From Aquimarina brevivitae (GTDB lineage: Bacteria > Bacteroidota > Bacteroidia > Flavobacteriales > Flavobacteriaceae): a stretch of DNA of 64,000 bases. The first letter of the stretch is position 1. Every line of letters starts with the position of its first letter. The DNA lies in contig NZ_SGXE01000002.1 of the NCBI RefSeq assembly GCF_004216895.1, positions 248,001 through 312,000 of the forward strand. Reading direction: 5' to 3'. Shown here one piece after another: positions 13,901 to 38,536 of this stretch. The notes under the pieces are model-generated. The model ran no database searches. It saw only the letters and a list, made by a program, of their open reading frames with translations, and was not told the origin of the DNA. A program made the translations under genes and the position numbers.

Positions 13901-16900
13901 GGAATAACTTTGGATACATCTGTGGTTAATTATTTAGCATCTGATGGTACAACTATTTTTTGGAATGATCTTACGTATTGGAATGATGTTTTTGGTATTG
14001 GAAGAGACGATGCTAGTGGACTTATGCAAGAGCAAAGTAACAGTATACATACAGGAAGTGGAGATGGAACCGGACAAGTTGGCCAGGGAAATATTGTTTT
14101 AAGCAATCCGACTAGTTTAGATAATCTTGATTTTTTAATGATAGGACATGATAATGCTGCTTTGATTGAACAATCAACTGATATACCAGCATCCGAGTCT
14201 TGCTTTGCTCGGTTAGCCAGAGAATGGAAGGTTGATGTAACAGGGGATCCAGGACTTGTGACACTTAGTTTTGATCTCAATGCATTAACCGTTGGAGGAA
14301 CCTTGTTAGAAGATTTTAAACTATTGATTGATAGTGATGGTGATGGTGATTTTACTACAGGTGCAAGTACAGTACTTCCCACAAGTTTTAATTCAAACCG
14401 ATTGACTTTTGAAAACTTAACCCTTACTGATAATGTCATATTTACGTTTATAACAGGACAAGAATCGATTGCTCCAGTCATTAGCTGTCCTGCAGATATA
14501 ATTCAATCAAATGATCCAGGTAACTGTTCTGCTATTGTTAATGGTTTAACTCCTACTACTAGTGACAATTGTCAAATTGTATCTCAAACCTGGACATTAA
14601 CCGGTGCAACTACTGGGAATAGTTCTTCAATTGATATTAATGATGCTAGCGGTCAAGTTTTTAATATTGGTGTTACAACAGTAACGTATACCGTGAATGA
14701 TGCTGCAGGAAACACCAACTCTTGTCAATTTACAGTGACAGTAAATGATACTGAAAATCCAGTTGTAAATTGTATTTCTAATCAAACCAAGTCGGCTGAT
14801 TTAGGTGAATGCTTTTACACGGTAGTCGGGACTGAATTTGATCCTCTTTCAACTACTGATAATTGTTCAGTAGCTTCAATTAGTAATGATTTTAACAATT
14901 CAAATACATTAGATGGAGCGCAATTGATTGATGGGACGGTTGTTGTTTGGACTGTGGTAGATACTGCTGGTAATTCAAATACCTGTAGTTTTACGATTAC
15001 TATTGAGGATAACGAGGATCCAACCATAGCTACAGTAAGTGCTGTTACAGTAAGTACTGATTTGGGACAATGTTCGTATGATAGTACTCAATTAGCACCT
15101 CCTGCAACTACAGATAATTGTGGGGTAGCAAGTGTTTTGGCCAGTCCTTCTAGCTTAAGCCTTGGAGAAAATACAGTAACCTGGACAGTAACAGATGATG
15201 CTGGTAATACCAATAGTTCGATACAATCAGTTACTGTTGTGGACAATGAAAATCCTACCATTGCTACAGTAAGTGCTGTTACAGTAAGTACAGATTTAGG
15301 CCAATGTTCATATGATAGCAGTCAATTAGCACCTCCGGCCACAACAGATAATTGTGGGGCAGCAAATATTGTGGCCAGTCCTACAAATTTAGACCTTGGA
15401 GAAAATACAGTAACCTGGACAGTAACAGATAATGCAGGAAATACGAATAATTCTATTCAAACAGTAACTGTTGTAGACGATGAAGATCCCACCATAGCAA
15501 CAGTAAGTGCTGTTACAGTAAATACAGATTTAGGCCAATGTTCGTATGATAGTAGTCAGTTAGCACCTCCGGCCACAACAGATAATTGCGGGGTAGCAAG
15601 TGTTACGGCTAATCCTTCTAGCTTAAGTCTTGGTGAAAATACGGTCACCTGGACAGTAACGGATAATGCTGGTAATACACGTAGTTCTATACAATCTGTA
15701 ACTGTTGTCGATATTGAGAATCCTACAATAGCAACACTTGGTGCTATCACGGTCAATACGGATTTAGGACAATGTTCTTATGATAGTACTCAATTAGTTC
15801 CGCCAACAACTACAGATAATTGTGGGGTAGCAACTGTTATGGCTAATCCTTCTAGTTTAGGCCTTGGAGAAAATACGGTTACTTGGACTGTAACAGATAA
15901 TGCAGGTAATACACGTAGTTCTGTACAATCCGTAACTGTTTTAGATAATGAGAATCCTACAATAGCTACGATTAGTGCTGTTACGGTTAATACGGATTTG
16001 GGACAATGTTCGTATGATAGTAGTCAGTTGGCGCCTCCGGTAGCCACAGATAACTGTGGTGTAGCAAGTGTTTTGGCCAGTCCTTCTAGTTTAAGCCTTG
16101 GAGAAAATACAGTAACCTGGACAGTAACAGATAATGCAGGTAATACAAATAGTTCTATACAAACGGTCACTGTTGTAGATAATGAGAATCCTACAATAAC
16201 TACACTTAGCGCTGTTACAGTGAATACAGATTTAGGACAATGTTCTTTTGATAGCACTCAATTGGTTCCACCAACAACCACAGATAATTGTGGGATTGCC
16301 AGTGTTGTGGCCAGCCCTTCTAGCTTAAGCCTCGGAGAAAATACGGTCACCTGGACAGTAACAGACAATGCTGGTAATACGCTTAGTTCTATACAAACGG
16401 TCACTGTTGTAGATAATGAGATTCCTACAATAGCTACACCAGCCGCTGTTACAGTGAATACAGATTTAGGACAATGTTCTTTTGATAGCACTCAATTGGT
16501 TCCACCAACAACCACAGATAATTGTGGGATTGCCAGTGTTGTGGCCAGCCCTTCTAGCTTAAGTCTCGGAGAAAATACTGTCACCTGGACAGTAACAGAC
16601 AATGCAGGTAATACCAATAGTTCTATACAATCCGTAACTGTTGTGGATAATGAAAATCCTACTATAGTTACGGTAAGCGCTGTTACCGTTAATACAGATT
16701 TAGGACAATGCTCGTATGATAGTTCTCAATTGGTACCACCCTCAACATCAGATAATTGTGGTGTAGCAAGTGTTGTTGTTAGTCCATCTAGCTTAGAACC
16801 TGGAGAAAATACCGTTACCTGGACAGTAACTGATAATGTAGGAAACGTACAAAGCACCACACAAATCGTTACTGTTGTAGATACTGAAAATCCTCAACTT

Positions 16901-29355: not shown

Positions 29356-29399
29356 GTAACTCATGTTACTGAACCTTTGCTAACTGAACCTTACCTTTG
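29356..29399 (+). promoter_or_regulatory. Crp/Fnr-type operator and -7 box of the SulP gene
   Basis: GTAAC-TCAT-GTTAC at 29356-29369 and a perfect -7 box TACCTTTG at 29392-29399. The palindrome centre is 29.5 nt before the -7 box, which puts it near -42 from the predicted start: the class II activator position. The same arrangement recurs at 31202, 34817 and 37504. Confidence 0.75.
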
Positions 29400-29447
29400 A
29401 AAAGTTAAAAAGCTAAGCAGTTGTAGCAGCGTTAATGAAAGTATCAT

Positions 29448-31187
29448 ATGTTAAAAAAAATATTCCCAATTATACAATGGTTACCTGTCTATAAGAAATC
29501 CTGGTTATCTGGTGATATTGCCGCAGGGATCACCGTAGGTATCATGTTAATTCCTCAGGGTATGGCCTATGCCATGATTGCTGGTCTACCACCTGTATTT
29601 GGCTTATACGCGGCATTAGTTCCACAAGTTATGTACGCTTTTATGGGTACTTCCAAACAGTTGGCTGTAGGGCCCGTTGCCATGGATTCGCTATTAGTAG
29701 CTTCAGGATTAGGGGCACTTGCTTTGTCTGGGATCGAGGAATACATTGCTATGGCTATTTTCCTGGCTTTATTTATGGGAGCTATACAATTGCTTTTGGG
29801 GCTATTACGGATGGGATTTTTGGTAAACTTTTTATCTAAACCTGTAATCAGTGGTTTTACTTCGGCAGCCGCAATAACCATAGGAATGAGTCAAGTGAAG
29901 CATTTGCTTGGTATAAACGTAACCAACACTACACAATTAATAAGCTTATTTCAACATATAATTGAGAAACTGCACACTATTAATTTAATAGCGGTAAGCA
30001 TTGGTCTGATTTCCATCTTCATTATTTTAGGGTTAAAAAAAATTCATACCAAAATTCCAGCAGCTTTAGTTATTGTTATTTTAGGTATTGTAGCCACATA
30101 TTTTTTTAATTTAGAAGCCTTTGGATTACAAATCGTAGGGAATGTTCCAGAGGGGTTGCCATCTTTTGTATTACCAACCTTAGATACAACGAAATTCCCA
30201 GAACTTTTTACCATAGCCATAACCCTTGCCCTTATAGCATTTATGGAAGCTATTTCAGTTTCAAAAGCAATAGAAGAAAAGCATCAAGATTATGAAGTAG
30301 ATGCCAACCAAGAGCTAATTGCTTTAGGAACGGCTAATATAGTTGGATCGCTTTTTCAATCGTATCCGGTAACGGGGGGCTTTTCGAGGACTGCTGTTAA
30401 TGATCAGGCAGGAGCTAAAACAGGGGTAGCCGCATTAGTAAGTGTATTAATAGTCGGATTAACATTACTATTTTTAACGCCTATTTTCTACTACTTACCA
30501 AAATCGATTTTGGCTGCCATTATTATGGTTGCAGTATTCGGGTTAATTGATATTTCTTATCCTATAACTTTATACAAAAACAGCAAAGATGAATTTTATT
30601 TATTGTTACTTACGTTTGGATTAACCCTACTCATAGGCATCAAAGAGGGAATTTTAATAGGAGTTTTAGCGTCTTTGCTGTTGTTGGTTTATAGAACCTC
30701 AAAACCACATATTGCGATTTTAGGAAATATAAAAGGCACAGATTATTTTAAAAATATTAATCGTTTCGGGGATGAAGTGATTATTGATGAAAAGGTGCTT
30801 ATTTTACGCTTTGATGCTCAATTGTATTTTGGTAATAAGGATTATTTCAAAAAAGAATTATACAAAGAAATTCAAAGAAAAAATGCCAAACTGAGCACGG
30901 TCATTTTAAATGCTGAAAGTATCAATTATATTGACAGCAGTGCTATACATATGCTGAAACAAGTAATTATGGATTTGAAGAAGAAAAACATTTCATTCTT
31001 GGTAAGCGGAGCCATCGGGCCAGCAAGAGATATTATTTTTAGTAGTGGACTGATTGATCTTATCGGTCGCAATAATCTATTTGTAAAAACTGTTGATGCT
31101 TATCAGTATTGTACTTCAATTACAACAAAAACAGAATTGCAGCGAAAAATAGCCTGGCAAAATAAAAGTAAACTATATTTAGATTAA
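29448..31187 (+). CDS. SulP family inorganic anion transporter with STAS domain
   Basis: A 579-residue inner-membrane transporter (SLC26/SulP) for sulfate, bicarbonate or related anions. The N-terminal part holds the family signature GITVGIMLIPQGMAYAMIAG and PPVFGLYAALVPQ, with about 12-14 hydrophobic segments through residue ~410. The sequence NIVGSLFQSYPVTGGFSRTA (residues ~300-320) is the conserved loop. The STAS domain covers about 440-555, with ILNAESINYIDSSAIHMLK. The substrate cannot be read from sequence. The neighbouring MBL/rhodanese and YeeE genes carry the same operator, which favours sulfate, sulfite or thiosulfate over bicarbonate. Confidence 0.93.
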   Translation: MLKKIFPIIQWLPVYKKSWLSGDIAAGITVGIMLIPQGMAYAMIAGLPPVFGLYAALVPQVMYAFMGTSKQLAVGPVAMDSLLVASGLGALALSGIEEYIAMAIFLALFMGAIQLLLGLLRMGFLVNFLSKPVISGFTSAAAITIGMSQVKHLLGINVTNTTQLISLFQHIIEKLHTINLIAVSIGLISIFIILGLKKIHTKIPAALVIVILGIVATYFFNLEAFGLQIVGNVPEGLPSFVLPTLDTTKFPELFTIAITLALIAFMEAISVSKAIEEKHQDYEVDANQELIALGTANIVGSLFQSYPVTGGFSRTAVNDQAGAKTGVAALVSVLIVGLTLLFLTPIFYYLPKSILAAIIMVAVFGLIDISYPITLYKNSKDEFYLLLLTFGLTLLIGIKEGILIGVLASLLLLVYRTSKPHIAILGNIKGTDYFKNINRFGDEVIIDEKVLILRFDAQLYFGNKDYFKKELYKEIQRKNAKLSTVILNAESINYIDSSAIHMLKQVIMDLKKKNISFLVSGAIGPARDIIFSSGLIDLIGRNNLFVKTVDAYQYCTSITTKTELQRKIAWQNKSKLYLD

Positions 31188-31201
31188 CTGGTGTTATATC
31201 T

Positions 31202-31245
31202 GTAACAAAAGTTACGGTATATAATTAATAGCATTAGTATCTTTA
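31202..31245 (+). promoter_or_regulatory. Crp/Fnr-type operator and -7 box of the MBL/rhodanese gene
   Basis: GTAAC-AAAA-GTTAC at 31202-31215, with a -7 box TATCTTTA at 31238-31245. Centre-to-box distance is 29.5 nt, as at the SulP promoter. The palindrome lies 50 bp upstream of the ATG. Confidence 0.75.
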
Positions 31246-31265
31246 CATCGTAAAATTAAGGAAAT

Positions 31266-32681
31266 ATGAAAGTAGAACAAATTTATACAGGATGCCTGGC
31301 ACAAGGCGCATATTATATTGAGAGTGAAGGTGAAGTTGCCATTATAGATCCACTTAGAGAGGTAAAGCCTTATATAGAAAAAGCGAAGAAAAATAACGCA
31401 AAAATCACTTATATTTTTGAGACGCATTTCCATGCTGATTTTGTGAGTGGTCATGTTACCTTATCTAAAGAAACTGGAGCACCTATTATTTTTGGTCCAC
31501 AAGCTAACCCTAGTTTTGATGCGATTATCGCAAAGGATGGACAAGAGTTTAAATTAGGTAACGTAACCATAGTTGCCTTACACACTCCAGGACATACTAT
31601 GGAAAGTACAACCTATTTATTAAAAGACAAAGACGGTAAAGATTACGCTATATTTAGTGGAGATACCTTGTTTCTTGGCGATGTAGGTAGGCCAGACCTG
31701 GCACAAAAAGCAGCGAACATGACCCAGGAGCAATTGGCGGAAACGCTATATGACAGTTTACGCACTAAAATAATGCCATTAGCTGATGATGTTATCGTTT
31801 ATCCTGCACATGGGGCTGGTTCTGCTTGTGGTAAAAATATGATGAAGGAGACCGTAGATACCTTAGGCAACCAGAAGCAAATGAATTATGCACTTCGAGA
31901 GGATATGACAAAAGAAGAGTTTGTAAAGGAAGTAACCGATGGTTTGTTACCTCCACCACAATACTTTCCGCTAAATGTGAAGATGAATAAAGAAGGTTAT
32001 GATGATATTGATGAGGTGTTAGAACGGGGTACGCAAGCTTTATCTCCAGATGCATTTGAAACGGCAGCCAACGAAACCGGAGCTATAGTTTTAGATGTTC
32101 GTCATCAAAATGAATTTGCCAAAGGGCACGTACCCAGGTCCATTTTTATTGGGTTAGATGGTGGATTTGCACCTTGGGTAGGCGCATTGATTGCGGATGT
32201 AAAACAACCAATTTTGTTGGTCGCTCCAGAGGGTAGAATAGAAGAGGCAGTAACTAGACTGAGCCGAGTTGGATTTGATCAAACGCTTGGTTTTTTAAAA
32301 GGTGGTTTCGAAGCCTGGAAAGAAGCAGGTAAGGATTATGATACGGTGGATAGTGTATCAGCAGATACCTTTAAAAAACAATTAGAAGCCGACGATAAAA
32401 CTCCAGTATACGATGTACGAAAGGAAGGTGAGTATGTATCAGAGCACATTGCTGATGCGCAAAATACGCCATTGGACTTTTTAAATGAGTATCTAACTGA
32501 ATTTCCAGAAAAAGAAACCTTCTATGTACACTGTGCAGGGGGATATAGAAGTATGATCGCCGCTTCAATCCTGAAGAGTAGAGGAATTCATAACCTAATC
32601 GACGTTGCTGGTGGCTTTAAAGCAATTAAAGAAGCAGCTATACCGGTTACTGATTATGTGTGTCCAACAACCTTAAAATAA
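31266..32681 (+). CDS. MBL-fold / double rhodanese fusion, persulfide dioxygenase-like
   Basis: A 471-residue cytoplasmic protein. The N-terminal metallo-beta-lactamase domain (1-~240) has THFHAD (H54, H56, D58), TPGHTMEST, FSGDTLFLGDVGRPDL and VYPAHGAGSACG, which match the ETHE1/persulfide dioxygenase group that oxidises glutathione or low-molecular-weight persulfide to sulfite. Two rhodanese domains follow. The first (about 262-355) has no active-site Cys (LLVAPEGRIEEA). The second (about 365-465) has C423 in VHCAGGYRS and should carry sulfur. The layout fits the known bacterial MBL-rhodanese proteins of sulfide detoxification. It lies in the sulfur regulon of this region and has its own terminator. 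Confidence 0.93.
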   Translation: MKVEQIYTGCLAQGAYYIESEGEVAIIDPLREVKPYIEKAKKNNAKITYIFETHFHADFVSGHVTLSKETGAPIIFGPQANPSFDAIIAKDGQEFKLGNVTIVALHTPGHTMESTTYLLKDKDGKDYAIFSGDTLFLGDVGRPDLAQKAANMTQEQLAETLYDSLRTKIMPLADDVIVYPAHGAGSACGKNMMKETVDTLGNQKQMNYALREDMTKEEFVKEVTDGLLPPPQYFPLNVKMNKEGYDDIDEVLERGTQALSPDAFETAANETGAIVLDVRHQNEFAKGHVPRSIFIGLDGGFAPWVGALIADVKQPILLVAPEGRIEEAVTRLSRVGFDQTLGFLKGGFEAWKEAGKDYDTVDSVSADTFKKQLEADDKTPVYDVRKEGEYVSEHIADAQNTPLDFLNEYLTEFPEKETFYVHCAGGYRSMIAASILKSRGIHNLIDVAGGFKAIKEAAIPVTDYVCPTTLK

Positions 32682-32699
32682 ATTGTATAATAAATATAG

Positions 32700-32726
32700 A
32701 AAGTCCGCAACTTGCGGACTTTTTTG
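32700..32726 (+). terminator. Terminator after the MBL/rhodanese gene
   Basis: AAGTCCGC/GCGGACTT with a 5-nt AACTT loop, followed by a T run, 19 bp past the stop codon. Confidence 0.9.
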
Positions 32727-32825
32727 GTTTTATGAGGTTTATACCCTTTTTGTACCATCAGTAACCCTAGATATTTCAAAAAACAAAAAGATTGCGGTAT
32801 CTTAGGATTGTAAACAAAACTTTTT

Positions 32826-33503
32826 ATGAAAACTCTAGGACTTATAGGCGGTACTTCCTGGCACGCTACAGTTGAATATTATCGATTGATCAATACTTTG
32901 GTGGCTAACGAAATTGGTGCACAGGCTAATCCCGAGTTATTACTCTACAGTCTCAACGTTGAGGTGATGCGAAAAGGAGATGATGATGAGATCAATGCAA
33001 AATATCTTGAAGTCTCACAAACCCTACAGGAAGCTGGTGCTGAAGCTATTGTTATCTGTGCCAATACGCCACATATGGTGTACGAATATGTGCAGCCTAA
33101 AATTAAGATTCCGATACTACATATTGCAAGTGCCACAGGTAAAGAGGCTGCTAATAAAGGATTGAAAAAATTAGGATTGTTAGGTACTAAGCCTACGATG
33201 CAGCGAGATTTTATAAGCAATGTGTTGGCAACAGATTTTGGTATCCAAACCCTACTACCCAAGGATTTAGAGCAATGTCATAAGTATATAGCTGATGAAT
33301 TAACGCAAGGTAAATTTACAGCGGAAGCAAAGGAATTTTATAAGCAGCAAATAGAGCTATTAAAAACGCAGGGTGCGGATGGTATTATTTTGGGCTGTAC
33401 TGAGCTTCCTATACTAATGAAAAATGAAGCAACAGTACTTCCTTTACTTTCTACCACAGATCTACACGCCCAGATGGCTGTGGATTTTATTTTGGGTAAC
33501 TAA
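32826..33503 (+). CDS. Aspartate/glutamate racemase family protein
   Basis: A 225-residue PLP-independent amino-acid racemase. The N-terminal GLIGGTSWHATVEYYR is typical of the aspartate racemase (RacX/YgeA-like) subfamily. The two catalytic cysteines are visible: C78 in VICANTPHM and C191 in ILGCTELP. The substrate may be Asp, Glu or other amino acids. The gene stands alone between the sulfur genes. It has a weak -7-like box (TATCTTAG at 32798) and no GTAAC palindrome, so it is probably not part of that regulon. Confidence 0.9.
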   Translation: MKTLGLIGGTSWHATVEYYRLINTLVANEIGAQANPELLLYSLNVEVMRKGDDDEINAKYLEVSQTLQEAGAEAIVICANTPHMVYEYVQPKIKIPILHIASATGKEAANKGLKKLGLLGTKPTMQRDFISNVLATDFGIQTLLPKDLEQCHKYIADELTQGKFTAEAKEFYKQQIELLKTQGADGIILGCTELPILMKNEATVLPLLSTTDLHAQMAVDFILGN

Positions 33504-33588
33504 TACTTTAGAAGCTAATGGTTTTGTTTAAAAATATTATTTTGCTCTATCAAATAATAAGTAAAATTTAAGGTAAGGAAGTACAAAC

Positions 33589-33870
33589 ATGATATTACTA
33601 TTTATCTTCTTTATTTCAGTGTTTCAATTCCTAATCTACTACGTTAAGAATAGATATAAATTAAGGTTCTCAGATCTTTTTATTTATGTACTAATATTAG
33701 GAGGTTACATTTTTATTTTCCCAAAATTCCTTTACCCAAAAACTGTTGAGAACGATATTAAATGTGGTATGCCGATTTTAGGAATCACCTTGGCTCTATG
33801 GTTATTTGGTTTCCTGGCAAGTACAATAACTCATTTGATTTGGAGATTAAGATTAAAAATGATAGGTTAA
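33589..33870 (+). CDS. Small hypothetical membrane protein
   Basis: A 93-residue protein with about three hydrophobic segments: 1-18 (LLFIFFISVFQFLIYYV), 30-47 (IYVLILGGYIFIF) and 63-85 (ILGITLALWLFGFLASTI). It ends in a basic tail (WRLRLKMIG), so it is probably an inner-membrane protein. No family was recognised. It lies 85 bp after the racemase gene and convergent to the desaturase-family gene. Confidence 0.65.
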   Translation: MILLFIFFISVFQFLIYYVKNRYKLRFSDLFIYVLILGGYIFIFPKFLYPKTVENDIKCGMPILGITLALWLFGFLASTITHLIWRLRLKMIG

Positions 33871-33912
33871 AATAAATTGGAAACTACATAGATATTGGAT
33901 TCAAAAATTTGA

Positions 33913-34806
33913 TTATGATTTCTTATTTTCTGTTTTAAACCCATAGCTTACTTGTCCCAGAAAATCCTTAGGGATTTTTTCATCACCAGGAAAACCAATT
34001 TCAACAGTTCCGCTGTCTTCTGGAATATAGTTGGTTTTAAACAGATAATCCCATACACTTAAACTGATACCAAAATTGACACCAAAACTGCCTTTTGGTA
34101 AAGTATAGGCATGATGGTATAAATGCATCACAGGATTATTAAAAATATACTTTAAGGGCCCCCAGGTAATTTTAAGGTTGGCGTGATTGAGATGACCTAT
34201 GGTTATCGCAATAAAATGTACGATGTAAGCCTGCTCTGGTTCAAAACCTCCCAATAGCATTACACCAAGTGTTTTAAGTGGTTTGTAAAAGATGTTTTCC
34301 ATCCAGTGATAACGCAGATGCGCTGCAAACCCCATTTCTTTTACACTATGGTGAATTTGATGGTATTTCCACAGTACTGGATATTTATGTAAAAGCAGGT
34401 GGGTAAACCACTGCACAAAATCCAATATGATAAAAAACACTAATAATTGTAGCCACATCGGCCAGTTAGCTGTATTAATTATTGCCAGAGAAGTGGCGCT
34501 GATGCCTAAATCGTTAAAAAAAAGTGCTATTAGTTTATAAAACCCACTGATAACAATGGCAAAAACAAAGAAGTTGAAAAACATATAAAAGGCATCTAAC
34601 CAAAAATCTTTTCTAAAAACAGCCTGATTTTTTCGCCACGGAAACAATAACTCCAATCCCCAAACTACGACGGAAATTAGAATTAGCCCCCAGAAATAAT
34701 TATGATACCAGCTTACCTGGAATAGTATAGATTTCCAGGTGTAATTAACAGTGCCCAGTAGTGCATTTAAAAAGCCTTCAATATAATACTCCATAATCAT
34801 CAACAT
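33913..34806 (-). CDS. Sterol desaturase / fatty acid hydroxylase family protein
   Basis: A 297-residue multi-pass di-iron membrane oxygenase. The histidine clusters that bind the irons are visible: HLLLHKYPVLWKYHQIHHS (HxxxH then HxxHH), HLNHANL, and MHLYHHA near the C-terminus. About four to five hydrophobic helices surround them. In bacteria this family acts on lipids (hydroxylation or desaturation) and also covers alkylglycerol-cleaving enzymes. The substrate is unknown here. Its promoter carries the GTAAC-N4-GTTAC operator in the same geometry as the sulfur genes, so it belongs to their regulon. The start may be 34806 or the ATG nine bases further in. Confidence 0.88.
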   Translation of the reverse strand: MLMIMEYYIEGFLNALLGTVNYTWKSILFQVSWYHNYFWGLILISVVVWGLELLFPWRKNQAVFRKDFWLDAFYMFFNFFVFAIVISGFYKLIALFFNDLGISATSLAIINTANWPMWLQLLVFFIILDFVQWFTHLLLHKYPVLWKYHQIHHSVKEMGFAAHLRYHWMENIFYKPLKTLGVMLLGGFEPEQAYIVHFIAITIGHLNHANLKITWGPLKYIFNNPVMHLYHHAYTLPKGSFGVNFGISLSVWDYLFKTNYIPEDSGTVEIGFPGDEKIPKDFLGQVSYGFKTENKKS

Positions 34807-34816
34807 AGATAAGGTA

Positions 34817-34860
34817 CAAAAGTACCATTTTTTGATGAGTACCTTTGTAACTCTGGTTAC
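34817..34860 (-). promoter_or_regulatory. Crp/Fnr-type operator and -7 box of the sterol-desaturase-family gene
   Basis: GTAAC-TCTG-GTTAC at 34847-34860. On the minus strand TACTTTTG at 34824-34817 is a perfect TAnnTTTG -7 box. Centre-to-box distance is 29.5 nt, identical to the three plus-strand sites, so the operator belongs to the minus-strand gene rather than cydA. A second palindrome, GGTAC-AAAA-GTACC (34813-34826), overlaps the -7 box. Confidence 0.72.
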
Positions 34861-34965
34861 AGTTTGAGGAATAAGTGGTGGGGTGTTTTTATGGATATTG
34901 TAAAAATGATCGCTGCTATTTTTTGAATAATAGGCAATTATTTTTGCGGGATTCTTAAAGAGAAT

Positions 34966-35009
34966 CTGATGGTCAGCAGTAGTTTTTTGATTTTTGTACC
35001 GTATCTTTG
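34966..35009 (+). promoter_or_regulatory. cydA promoter with a degenerate palindrome at the activator position
   Basis: TATCTTTG at 35002-35009 is a perfect -7 box and places transcription start near 35015, after the alternative TTG start at 34994. The imperfect palindrome CTGAT-GGTC-AGCAG (34966-34979) is centred 29.5 nt before the -7 box, the same spacing as the regulon sites but with different bases. A further palindrome, GATTCT-TAAAG-AGAATC, lies at 34950-34966. Confidence 0.5.
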
Positions 35010-35029
35010 AAACACAAAGTTTCTCTTCT

Positions 35030-36412
35030 ATGGATACAGAAATTCTTGCCAGAATCCAATTTGCTTTTACTGTTGCATTTCACTACATCTACCCGCCATT
35101 AAGTATTGGTTTGGGGCTGTTGATGGTCATTTTCGAAAGTATTTACGTACGCACCAAAAAGAAAGAGTATCACGTGCTCGCTAAATTTTGGACTAAAATA
35201 TTTGCCTTAACCTTTGGGATTGGTGTGGTAACAGGAATCGTTATGGAATTTGAATTTGGAACCAATTGGGCGGTGTATAGCAGATACGTAGGGGATGTTT
35301 TTGGTAGCGCTTTAGCCGCAGAAGGTATTTTCGCATTTGCTTTAGAAAGTGGTTTTTTGGGCGTGCTCTTATTTGGATGGAACCGAGTCAAACCTTGGGT
35401 GCACCTGGTAGCTACGGTAGGTGTGTTCTTAGGGTCTATGTTTTCGGCCATATGGATTGTGGTGGCAAATAGTTGGCAACAAACACCAGCAGGTTATCAT
35501 ATCGTAGGCGAAGGATTGAACGCTCGGGCAGAGATTACTGATTTTTGGGCGATGGTATTTAATCCATCTAGTGTAGATCGATTACTACACGTATGGTTGG
35601 GTGCCTTCTTGGCAGGTGCTTTCCTGGTGCTGAGTGTACACGCTTATTATTTGATAAAAGGAAGGTATGTGGATATTTCTAAAAAAGCATTTAAAATAGC
35701 ATTGGTTGTAGCCACAGTGTTTTCGCTAAGTCAATTGGCTTCAGGTCACAGTTCTGCGGAAGGCGTTGCGGTATATCAACCGGCTAAATTGGCTGCTATG
35801 GAAGGGCATTTTGCTGCAAATGCACCGGCAGATATGTATATACTAGGTTGGGTAGATAAGGAACAGCAAAGGGTGTCGGGGATTAAAATTCCCGGAGGAC
35901 TATCTTTTTTAATGCATTATAATTTTAATTCACCAGTTACGGGGCTTACCGCTTTTCCTAAAGATGAACGTCCGCCTCAGGTAAATGCAGTTTTTCAGTT
36001 TTATCATATTATGGTAGCCATAGGGATGACGTTAATTCTGTTAACGTGTTTAGCGGTTTTCTTTTGGTTTAAAAAATCTTTGTTTGAAAAAAAATGGTTG
36101 TTGTGGATATTTGTATTTGCCGCTATATTACCACAAATAGCCAATCAAGTAGGTTGGTTTACTGCAGAGATGGGGCGCCAACCTTGGGTGGTGTATGGAC
36201 TTTTGAGAACTTCTGAAGCTTTTTCGCAGGCGGTAACAAGCAATCAGATTTTGTTTTCATTAATCCTATTTTTTGCGGTGTATAGTTTGTTGTTTTTACT
36301 CTTTGTCTACTTGCTCAATAAAAAAATTAAGCATGGGCCTTATGATGAGTCTGAAGATGATGATCGACCACTAACCAAAGGTATTACTGAAGTACTCACA
36401 GGAAACGCTTAA
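35030..36412 (+). CDS. cydA: Cytochrome bd ubiquinol oxidase subunit I
   Basis: A 460-residue inner-membrane subunit of the high-affinity quinol oxidase. It starts [20 protein letters not shown], which contains the haem-ligand His of helix I. The GRQPWVVYG signature (about 60% into the protein) and [15 protein letters not shown] are family motifs. There are about nine hydrophobic segments. The ATG at 35030 is preferred over an in-frame TTG at 34994 because the -7 box (35002-35009) lies between them. It is followed by cydB after 3 bp. The bd oxidase resists sulfide and nitric oxide in other bacteria, which fits its placement among sulfide genes. Confidence 0.96.
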
Positions 36413-36415
36413 TTT

Positions 36416-37453
36416 ATGGAAACATTTTTAGGAATAGATTATCCCACTTGGTGGTTTTTAGTTGTAGGAGGTTTATTTTCTGGCTACGCCATATTGGATG
36501 GATTTGATTTTGGAGCAGGAGCGTGGCACTTATTTTTTAAAAGCGGGTATCAAAGACGAATTGCCCTCAATGCTGTGGGACCGGTTTGGGATGGTAATGA
36601 AGTTTGGCTGGTTATTGGAGGTGGAGCATTATTTGCTGGTTTTCCATTGATGTATGCTACCTTTTTCTCCTCAATGTATATTCCTTTTATGCTCTTTTTA
36701 GTATTTATTATTTTTAGAGCAATTGCCATAGAGTTCAGGGGTAAAGAAGAAATGAAATGGTGGCGAAAACTTTGGGATACGTGTTATAGTATCTCCAGCA
36801 TCATGCTTGCATTTTTATTAGGTATTGTATTAGGTAATGTGCTTCAAGGAATCGCTATTGGCGAAAACTATTTGTATCAAGAAGCTGGCTTTTTTGAATT
36901 TCTTAATCCTTATTCCTTAATGACGGGATGTACTTCCTTGGCGCTATTTATGGCACACGGAGCTATTTATTTGCTGCTTAAGACAGAGGGAAGAATGTTT
37001 GCAAAACTTACCCTTTTGTTAAAGAAAGGAATGATTTTCTTTATGGTAAGTTTTGGTATTACTACCTTGTATACCTTATTATATATTCCGCATTTATCAG
37101 ATGATTTTAAACAAAACCCTTACCTTTTTATAATTCCTGTACTAACGTTTTTGAGTATTGCAAATGTGCCGCGATTAGCTAATAAGAAGAGGTTTCGAAT
37201 TGCTTTTTTCTTTTCTTCGTTAACCATAGCATTTTTGTTGATGTTGGTAGCTATAGAGCTATATCCTAATCTTTTGATGTCTTCTATTGACCCTAAGTAC
37301 CATATTGATATCTACAATTCAGCTTCGTCTACCAAATCGTTGAAAATAATGATGACTTTCGTGGCGATAGGTGGGCCGCTGGTCTTGGGATATACCATTT
37401 TTGTGTATAGAACATTTAAAGGAAAAGTTCAATTGGATGAAACCAGTTACTAA
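36416..37453 (+). CDS. cydB: Cytochrome bd ubiquinol oxidase subunit II
   Basis: A 345-residue membrane partner of CydA. It contains GYAILDGFDFGAGAWHLFF and GPVWDGNEVWLVIGGGALFAGFP (split here around conserved DGNEVW), the CydB signatures, and about eight hydrophobic segments. It starts 3 bp after the cydA stop, so the two are co-translated. No CydX-like small subunit ORF is evident directly after it. Confidence 0.96.
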   Translation: METFLGIDYPTWWFLVVGGLFSGYAILDGFDFGAGAWHLFFKSGYQRRIALNAVGPVWDGNEVWLVIGGGALFAGFPLMYATFFSSMYIPFMLFLVFIIFRAIAIEFRGKEEMKWWRKLWDTCYSISSIMLAFLLGIVLGNVLQGIAIGENYLYQEAGFFEFLNPYSLMTGCTSLALFMAHGAIYLLLKTEGRMFAKLTLLLKKGMIFFMVSFGITTLYTLLYIPHLSDDFKQNPYLFIIPVLTFLSIANVPRLANKKRFRIAFFFSSLTIAFLLMLVAIELYPNLLMSSIDPKYHIDIYNSASSTKSLKIMMTFVAIGGPLVLGYTIFVYRTFKGKVQLDETSY

Positions 37454-37503
37454 GTTTTGATCTAGTAGTTACAACAAGCAATTTGCTACTTTTTAGGTGC
37501 TAG

Positions 37504-37547
37504 GTAACATTTGTTACAGACATTTGGGTGGGTATCGATTATTTTTG
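37504..37547 (+). promoter_or_regulatory. Crp/Fnr-type operator and -7 box of the YeeE/YedE genes
   Basis: GTAAC-ATTT-GTTAC at 37504-37517 and TATTTTTG at 37540-37547, a perfect -7 box. Centre-to-box distance is again 29.5 nt. The position implies transcription start near 37553 and supports the ATG at 37562 rather than a TTG at 37511. Confidence 0.75.
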
Positions 37548-37561
37548 TCAAAAAGAAAAAT

Positions 37562-38119
37562 ATGGAAATTTTAATGGATTCCTGGCCTTGGTATATATCG
37601 GGTCCAATGATTGCATTGGTAATGGGAATGTTGATTTTTGTCGGTAAAAATTTTGGAATGTCATCCAACCTTCGAACACTTTGCACGATTTGTGGAGCAG
37701 GTAGAACAACCCATTTTTTTAGGTTTGACTGGAAATCTCAACGCTGGAATCTACTTGTGGTACTCGGTGCCATTATTGGCGGTTTTATCGGTGCTCATTT
37801 GCTAAGTACAACAACAGATGTAGCCATACACCCAGAGGTAATCCATGAACTGAACACATTAGGATTTAATGATGCTGGATCTGCCTATTTACCAGAGAAA
37901 TTATTTGACACAAGTGTTTTTGGAGATGGTATTAGCCTTATATTCTTAATTGTAGGAGGTTTTTTAGTAGGTTTTGGAGCACGCTATGCAGGTGGATGTA
38001 CTTCTGGTCATGCCATTAGTGGACTAAGCAATTTTCAATTACCATCACTTATAGCCGTTATCGGCTTTTTTATAGGCGGTTTGGTCATGGTTCATTTGTT
38101 ATTTCCTTTATTATTTTAA
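37562..38119 (+). CDS. YeeE/YedE family sulfur transport protein, first half
   Basis: A 185-residue membrane protein with about four to five hydrophobic helices. It carries the family's conserved cysteine motifs LCTICGAGR (about residues 40-48) and RYAGGCTSGHAISG (about 142-155). In the YeeE/TsuA family such cysteines pass thiosulfate (or another reduced sulfur species) through the membrane. The protein is half the length of full TsuA, and the second half is encoded by the next gene 3 bp downstream. The substrate, thiosulfate or sulfide-derived, is inferred. Confidence 0.9.
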   Translation: MEILMDSWPWYISGPMIALVMGMLIFVGKNFGMSSNLRTLCTICGAGRTTHFFRFDWKSQRWNLLVVLGAIIGGFIGAHLLSTTTDVAIHPEVIHELNTLGFNDAGSAYLPEKLFDTSVFGDGISLIFLIVGGFLVGFGARYAGGCTSGHAISGLSNFQLPSLIAVIGFFIGGLVMVHLLFPLLF

Positions 38120-38122
38120 GAT

Positions 38123-38536
38123 ATGAGAGCAGTCGTTTATTTAGTTATCGGAGTCATTTTTGGTATAACCATGTATAAATCAGAAGCAGCGTCTTGGTTT
38201 AGGATCTATGAAATGTTTCAGTTTAAATCCTTTCATATGTATGGCATTATTGGCTCAGCTTTGATTGTTGGTGCACTACTGATATTTTTGATCAAAAGAT
38301 TTAAACTAAAATCAATATACGGGGAGCGAATTGTTTTTATGCCAAAAGAGCGGAGTTTTAGCAGGTACATGTTTGGAGGTATTTTATTTGGATTAGGTTG
38401 GGCGCTGGCTGGAGCGTGTCCAGGACCCATGTTTACTTTGATAGGAGCCGGCTATAGTCCTATTTTAGTAGTGATAGCTTCTGCAATTTTAGGAACCTAT
38501 GTTTACGGACTACTTAAAGATAAGCTGCCACATTAA
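38123..38536 (+). CDS. YeeE/YedE family sulfur transport protein, second half (DUF6691-like)
   Basis: A 137-residue membrane protein with about four hydrophobic segments and the motif GWALAGACPGPMF (about residues 93-105), the Cys-containing half-transporter signature that pairs with the previous protein. It starts 3 bp after it, so stoichiometric co-translation is likely. Split YeeE/YedE pairs beside MBL-rhodanese genes are known in proteobacteria and Bacteroidota. Confidence 0.9.
   Translation: MRAVVYLVIGVIFGITMYKSEAASWFRIYEMFQFKSFHMYGIIGSALIVGALLIFLIKRFKLKSIYGERIVFMPKERSFSRYMFGGILFGLGWALAGACPGPMFTLIGAGYSPILVVIASAILGTYVYGLLKDKLPH

Follow-up and report, generated by a model that had tools for sequence, protein, structure and literature searches.

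The 64,000-nucleotide (nt) stretch of the Aquimarina brevivitae genome analysed here (contig NZ_SGXE01000002.1, positions 248,001 to 312,000 of the forward strand; hereafter the window) holds a dedicated sulfur regulon of four promoters with class II geometry, each carrying an exact GTAAC-N4-GTTAC palindrome at a fixed distance from its -7 box. Genomic linkage, co-occurrence and a shift of the operator with the recognition helix point to a Crp/Fnr protein, here called R, as their very probable regulator. An R dimer would bind the palindrome, centred at -41.5 in the four promoters, and, replacing the usual -33 contact, would activate sigma-A at the TAnnTTTG box in class II fashion. Targets in the host would be a SulP transporter, a metallo-beta-lactamase (MBL)-rhodanese persulfide-oxidising enzyme, a fatty-acid hydroxylase-family enzyme and a split YeeE/YedE transporter. 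The reading as a whole, in which R would bind GTAAC-N4-GTTAC, activate from the class II position, draw its specificity from Val183 and perhaps sense sulfane sulfur through cysteines, has a probability of roughly 0.8 in our estimate. Operators and boxes are located in the window as follows.

29356..29369, plus strand: operator 1, GTAACTCATGTTAC, SulP promoter; exact palindrome, with the -7 box following after 22 nt
29392..29399, plus strand: -7 box TACCTTTG, after a 22-nt spacer from operator 1
31202..31215, plus strand: operator 2, GTAACAAAAGTTAC, MBL-rhodanese promoter; exact palindrome
31238..31245, plus strand: -7 box TATCTTTA, after a 22-nt spacer from operator 2
34847..34860, minus strand: operator 3, GTAACCAGAGTTAC, promoter of the FA_hydroxylase-family gene; exact palindrome
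34817..34824, minus strand: -7 box TACTTTTG, first T at 34824, 22-nt spacer from operator 3
37504..37517, plus strand: operator 4, GTAACATTTGTTAC, YeeE/YedE promoter; exact palindrome
37540..37547, plus strand: -7 box TATTTTTG, after a 22-nt spacer from operator 4

A preliminary description of the window had reported palindromes at these four positions, with 29.5 nt between the palindrome centre and the first T of the -7 box; all four palindromes are exact, and the distance holds in 4/4 cases (22-nt spacer). Each TAnnTTTR box, a motif with a background of 0.0017 per position in the window, lies exactly 22 nt past its palindrome and points toward its downstream gene (4/4). Exact GTAACNNNNGTTAC occurs four times in the window versus 0.05 expected from dinucleotide shuffles, and none of 100 shuffles reaches four. 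Scanning the entire host genome (3,880,543 bases, 3.88 Mb, 12 contigs) yielded the same number of exact copies, all four in a single 8.2-kb segment inside the window, and the chance that four genomic sites share such a span is of the order of 1e-8. The genome scan for palindromes upstream of a box that had been suggested thus returns only these four exact sites, all preceding sulfur-related genes of the window; sites scattered genome-wide without spacing preference, which would have spoken against a regulon, are not what is seen, as 4/4 are clustered at a fixed spacing. When up to two mismatches to the palindrome plus TAnnTTTR are allowed, four sites have zero, none has one and 11 have two, compared with 15 for the reversed control. 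Chance origin of the sites is ruled out by the shuffles, the genome scan and the controls in related loci given below.

Conservation was analysed in related loci retrieved with the MBL-rhodanese protein as query, of which the best 80 of 575 were used. These loci contain 194 exact sites versus 1.8 expected from base composition and 5 for a scrambled control, counts that are not independent owing to the relatedness of the loci; 69/80 have at least one. Over offsets 0 to 62, TAnnTTTR peaks at 22 with 152 occurrences, no other offset exceeding 10, and the box stands at 22 nt on at least one side of 140/194 sites, on both sides of 12. A weak TG directly after the palindrome in the 140 sites (T 0.53, G 0.60) may be a remnant of the -33 element. 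A survey of 296 genomes of the same phylum for the composite of palindrome, 22 nt and TAnnTTTG identified it in 26 genomes, and the reversed control in none.

Start sites mapped in Flavobacterium psychrophilum place the sigma-A box TAnnTTTG at -12 to -5 (PMC9723704). With the first T of the box at -12, as in those start sites, the palindrome centre is predicted at -41.5, in agreement with the proposed placement near -42, the class II position; the arrangement predicted from sequence for a class II member of the Crp/Fnr superfamily is found in the 140 of 194 sites of the related loci. R could instead be a repressor, its palindrome blocking the -33 contact until a signal frees it. The palindrome end does abut the expected position of the -33 element, and repression is the mode of action of two known regulators of the sulfide response, CstR and SqrR/BigR (PMC9774590). 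The exact 22-nt spacing suits a polymerase-contacting activator better, because a repressor would accept more positions. As a rule, Crp/Fnr proteins centred at -41.5 activate, and repression by R seems improbable.

The genes behind the four operators, assigned to the families previously proposed for them, are confirmed in those families by Pfam:

29448..31187, plus strand: SulP anion transporter with STAS domain (Sulfate_transp 4e-113, STAS 3e-16)
31266..32681, plus strand: metallo-beta-lactamase fold plus rhodanese enzyme, persulfide-dioxygenase/sulfurtransferase-like (Lactamase_B 4e-13, Rhodanese 1e-28 in two stretches)
33913..34806, minus strand: fatty-acid hydroxylase/sterol desaturase family membrane enzyme (FA_hydroxylase 5.8e-24)
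37562..38119, plus strand: first half of a YeeE/YedE-type sulfur transporter (the longer frame 37511-38116 matches Sulf_transp at 1.5e-17)
38123..38536, plus strand: YeeE/YedE second half, DUF6691/Sulf_transp (DUF6691 4.2e-11, Sulf_transp 1.5e-9)

The first half of YeeE/YedE begins with the ATG at 37562; the listed TTG start at 37511 falls within operator 4. An in-frame ATG at 34794 is perhaps the true start of the FA_hydroxylase-family gene. In the 80 loci plus the window, 145 of 156 oriented site-strands have an open reading frame (ORF) behind them. MBL-rhodanese is the commonest family (44), followed by TauE (25), FA_hydroxylase and SulP (11 each), TolC-type proteins (10), Pyr_redox_2 (SQR-like, 8), molybdopterin sulfite-oxidase-like proteins and DUF983 (7 each), a YgaP-like membrane protein (6), R itself, peroxiredoxin and DsrE (4 each), Tll0287-like/cytochrome c (3) and YeeE (1, the window's own). 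YeeE is likewise found behind such a site in a further genome, G002. Pfam assignments, made on a single representative per family (from the window for SulP, MBL, FA_hydroxylase and YeeE), show the target families to be largely sulfur genes.

No exact GTAAC-N4-GTTAC site accompanies the cydAB, racemase and SLC13 genes of the window cluster. The genes cydA and cydB (cytochrome bd; 35002-37453) lie between operators 3 and 4 and seem to have a separate promoter, TATCTTTG at 35002. Oxidases of the bd type are known to tolerate sulfide. Elsewhere in the window, GTAAGTGCTGTTAC or a near copy of it recurs at 15035, 15269, 15503 and 16673, spaced by multiples of 234 nt, which looks like a repeated coding domain with no relation to the operator.

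The preliminary description had placed the regulator outside the window and had called for a single Crp/Fnr-type activator. R, a Crp/Fnr protein of 210 amino acids, is encoded on the minus strand of another contig (G000:C1:1067794-1068423; G codes denote genomes, G000 being the host, L codes denote loci or proteins, and the host contigs C1 and C2 bear R and the window, respectively). R fits the Crp/Fnr superfamily with 36.1 bits for PF13545 and 32.3 bits for PF00027, both over the cut-off; its orthologue L014 scores 32.3 and 34.4 bits for the two domains, and the L014 model hits CRP, NtcA and PDB entry 3dv8. An R relative scoring above 200 bits was identified within the fetched flanks of 64/80 related loci, and 5 of the 16 loci without R are shortened by contig ends. 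At least one exact site is present in 61/64 loci with R versus 8/16 without (p 5e-5). Scoring R across the 296 genomes surveyed for the composite gave 117 that match at 1e-20 or better. The composite occurs in 21/29 genomes whose R reaches at least 241 bits, a cut fixed only after the scores were seen, versus 5/267 others (p 3e-21). The five composite genomes under this cut are G230 and G238, which have hcp, G007 (TauE), G099 (OEP/TolC-type) and G154 (rhodanese). Linkage and co-occurrence, together with the class II geometry and the shift of the operator with the helix, support the idea of a single Crp/Fnr-type activator.

The sites might be bound by another Crp/Fnr-type protein, R being linked to them by history only. 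The host has nine cNMP-domain matches and three HTH_Crp_2 matches, R among them, and R is unlinked from the regulon there; moreover, Crp/Fnr homologues of a Flavobacteriales bin have been read as MalR-like carbon regulators (PMC8510549). Besides R, however, the HTH_Crp_2 proteins of the host (two, for one of which part of the sequence was searched) give at most eight weak matches in the 80 loci, up to 23.5 bits, and the six listed among these are R proteins themselves, whereas the operator is tracked both by the presence of R and by its helix residue. We therefore consider another Crp/Fnr-type protein unlikely as the regulator. Autoregulation of R was rejected as a general feature, with just four oriented sites preceding R in the 80 loci and none near R in the host. 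Four Aquimarina loci carry, a short way downstream of the MBL gene, a second and more distant Crp/Fnr paralogue of R:

L025:11910-12554, L035:11510-12151, L037:11910-12584 and L081:11905-12549: second R paralogues, whose helix reads SREV and which have C77 as their only cysteine of the motif

The proposed operator of R has a known counterpart. HcpR2 is a Crp/Fnr regulator of the same phylum whose printed consensus, GTAACnnnnGTTAC, is identical to that of R, and it differs from R in governing hcp and in carrying Pro, not Val, at the specificity position, CRP position 181 (Rodionov 2005, PMC1274295); the HcpR of B. thetaiotaomicron binds heme (PMC13370916). That the four host sites belong to such an HcpR2-type heme/nitric oxide regulator is suggested by the identical consensus and by two of the five composite genomes under the R cut. 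Both G230 and G238 bear hcp, and in G238 (L093) palindrome and box at 22 nt stand directly before hcp (Prismane 8e-154); in G230 (L094) they precede a DUF2492 gene. The host, on the other hand, has no hcp match (PF03063), and G230 and G238 are the only 2 of 14 genomes tested that do. The two HcpR-like proteins compared lack the CX5CC motif of R: L266 of G238 reaches 18.9 bits with the R profile, compared with 368 for R itself, a profile member, and L267, encoded beside hcp in G230, has the helix SRPSLAR and none of the R cysteines and goes unreported by the profile. The targets in relatives are, in addition, largely sulfur genes. Given the absent hcp and the poor profile scores, HcpR2 was rejected as regulator of the host sites, for which it is a very remote candidate. 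HcpR2 explains the composite in G238 and probably that in G230; from these sequences, two regulator lineages, R and HcpR2, appear to share one operator, and HcpR2-type promoters appear to share the 22-nt spacing.

The recognition helix of R, SRVVISR, places Val183 at the position of CRP E181 and of the corresponding Val of NtcA, and Val occupies this position in 65/65 linked or own R proteins. Rodionov 2005 linked this residue position with the base by which TTGAC and GTAAC motifs differ (PMC1274295). Part of the R relatives have Glu in place of Val at residue 183, and GTGAC-type half-sites are therefore expected for them from that link; in both half-sites the third base would be A with Val and G with Glu. 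In 160 nt upstream of 30 MBL-rhodanese genes from 27 Glu-type genomes, GTAAC-N4-GTCAC was identified at the 22-nt spacing in 11/30 promoters, all in one genus (group code g2), the remaining two Glu genomes of which have GTAAC-N4-ATCAC (G218) and GTGAT-N4-ATCAC (G057). G076 and G194 harbor GTGAC-N4-GTCAT, one G162 gene has an unaltered GTAAC-N4-GTTAC, and the other 14/30 genes have no clear site within this distance. Genome-wide, the GTRAC-N4-GTCAC composite is found in 25/296 genomes, and in 1 for the control.

The sample for a direct comparison of the helix residue comprised 63 of the 117 R-matching genomes, picked by us with high-scoring and composite-bearing genomes first, and genomes whose CX5C-type R proteins are all Val (n=26) or all Glu (n=29) were contrasted. 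These counts exclude G202, which has both types, and G007, G012, G017, G022, G049, G107 and G186, whose R-like protein, as retrieved, carries C77 but lacks C83; C77-only proteins of G002, G134 and G269 were disregarded, and these genomes were classed by their CX5C protein. The TTAC composite is present in 18/26 Val-type versus 3/29 Glu-type genomes, the TCAC composite in 17/29 Glu-type versus 6/26 Val-type genomes. Site totals (TTAC:TCAC) are 45:6 for Val and 4:22 for Glu, with a Fisher p of 3.5e-10 that overstates independence because there are few Val/Glu switches on the R tree. The helix-operator association is clear; it is based on few evolutionary switches and may reflect descent. A separate R-like clade (G012, G017, G022, G049, G186, G007, G269) combines CIMSFLGG/CVMSFLGG with the helix ARVVVSR/DRVVVSR, and Val alone is no predictor of the site because 5/7 of its genomes lack the TTAC composite.

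NtcA of cyanobacteria, the second PDB hit by sequence for the L014 orthologue, shares with R the Val at the E181 position. NtcA acts by class II activation at GTA-N8-TAC, with which GTAAC-N4-GTTAC is compatible. Unlike R, with its cysteine motif and sulfur targets, NtcA senses 2-oxoglutarate, and R scores 46.1 bits against the NtcA equivalog family (cut-off 244.95). E. coli CRP and FNR resemble R in fold, palindromic operator and class II position. R lacks, however, Glu72 and Arg82 of the CRP phosphate cassette, the CRP operator differs, and R reaches 55.7 bits against the CRP family (cut-off 266); the four-cysteine [4Fe-4S] site of FNR is likewise absent from R, where only C77, C83 and C84 are invariant. 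The first PDB hit of the L014 orthologue by both sequence and fold is 3dv8, a Crp/Fnr protein of Eubacterium rectale with cysteines aligned with C77 and C83 of R, but only 23% identical, with Glu in the helix and a TM score of 0.56 (root-mean-square deviation 14.8) over both domains.

The three cysteines, arranged as C77-X5-C83-C84, are invariant in 65/65 R proteins; Glu-type R proteins keep C77 and C83, and C84 is absent in 18/29 of their genomes. The motif covers the cyclic AMP (cAMP) cassette of CRP, whose Glu72 and Arg82 (usual CRP numbering, L014 alignment) are replaced by Met79 and Lys89, so that cAMP binding by R is not expected. Paired conserved cysteines are the mark of thiol-based sulfane-sulfur sensors and are present in R (C77, C83). 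Such sensors have been described from the CsoR, ArsR, MarR and Fis families. CstR, SqrR/BigR and FisR resemble R in exerting cysteine-based control over sulfide/persulfide oxidation genes and differ from it in family (CsoR, ArsR and Fis, respectively); FisR is a sigma-54 activator, unlike the other two (PMC9774590). By analogy with these regulators, the cysteines and sulfur targets of R suggest a thiol sensor of sulfane sulfur, in which sulfane sulfur or persulfide would, as a guess, link C77/C83/C84 and switch R on. The signal put forward in the preliminary description, sulfide, persulfide or redox state, would likewise agree with the gene content and with the invariant cysteines. Peroxiredoxin among the targets (four oriented ORFs) and three cysteines able to hold a cluster are also consistent with R sensing oxygen, peroxide, general thiol redox or a small ligand, or carrying an Fe-S cluster on the three cysteines. 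R without C84 in those 18/29 genomes has too few cysteines for a usual cluster, and the targets are largely reduced-sulfur genes; another signal is nevertheless quite possible, if somewhat below an even chance. Tentatively, and at close to even odds, we propose a Bacteroidota Crp/Fnr subfamily of activators in which CX5C(C) has replaced the cAMP cassette and would sense sulfane sulfur or persulfide, and in which the HcpR2 operator would be read via Val rather than Pro.

Several observations weigh against R as a Val183-specific, sulfane-sulfur-responsive activator of these promoters. None of the 15 host sites recovered at two mismatches or fewer is near R, which lies on another contig, and 3/64 R-linked loci are without an exact site. 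The 241-bit cut was set late and the helix sample was our own choice. The TTAC composite is missing from 8/26 Val-type genomes and the TCAC composite from 12/29 Glu-type genomes, and the 6/26 Val-type genomes with a TCAC site are at odds with their helix. Three genomes with a Glu helix also have TTAC sites: G162 has two (before MBL-rhodanese and before TauE), G154 has one beside one TCAC site, and G099 has one. The Val/Glu label needs just three changes on the R tree, and an independent-pairs test finds 1-2 pairs. One pair is well supported; a fraction of 0.6 of the draws shows it in agreement, and no draw shows it in conflict. The AlphaFold model of L014 has a pLDDT (per-residue confidence) of 87.9 overall and is of low confidence, 64-66, at residues 71-90, the cysteine loop, and naming sulfane sulfur or persulfide as the signal is guesswork.

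The open-licence PMC literature searched, against which alone novelty was judged, yielded no paper on this regulon, no regulator named for flavobacterial sulfide/thiosulfate handling and no sulfane-sulfur sensor of the Crp/Fnr family. Among the heterotrophs of sea and soil, flavobacteria are a major group; for their sulfur handling the present analysis supplies a candidate protein, an operator, a promoter geometry and a set of target genes, together with a specificity prediction that concerns a single residue, Val183. GTAAC-N4-GTTAC in Bacteroidota should not be read as an HcpR site unless the gene behind it is checked. The FA_hydroxylase family, DUF983, the YgaP-like membrane protein and the TolC-type outer-membrane protein, whose roles are not clear and which share the operator, become candidates for studies of sulfur stress.

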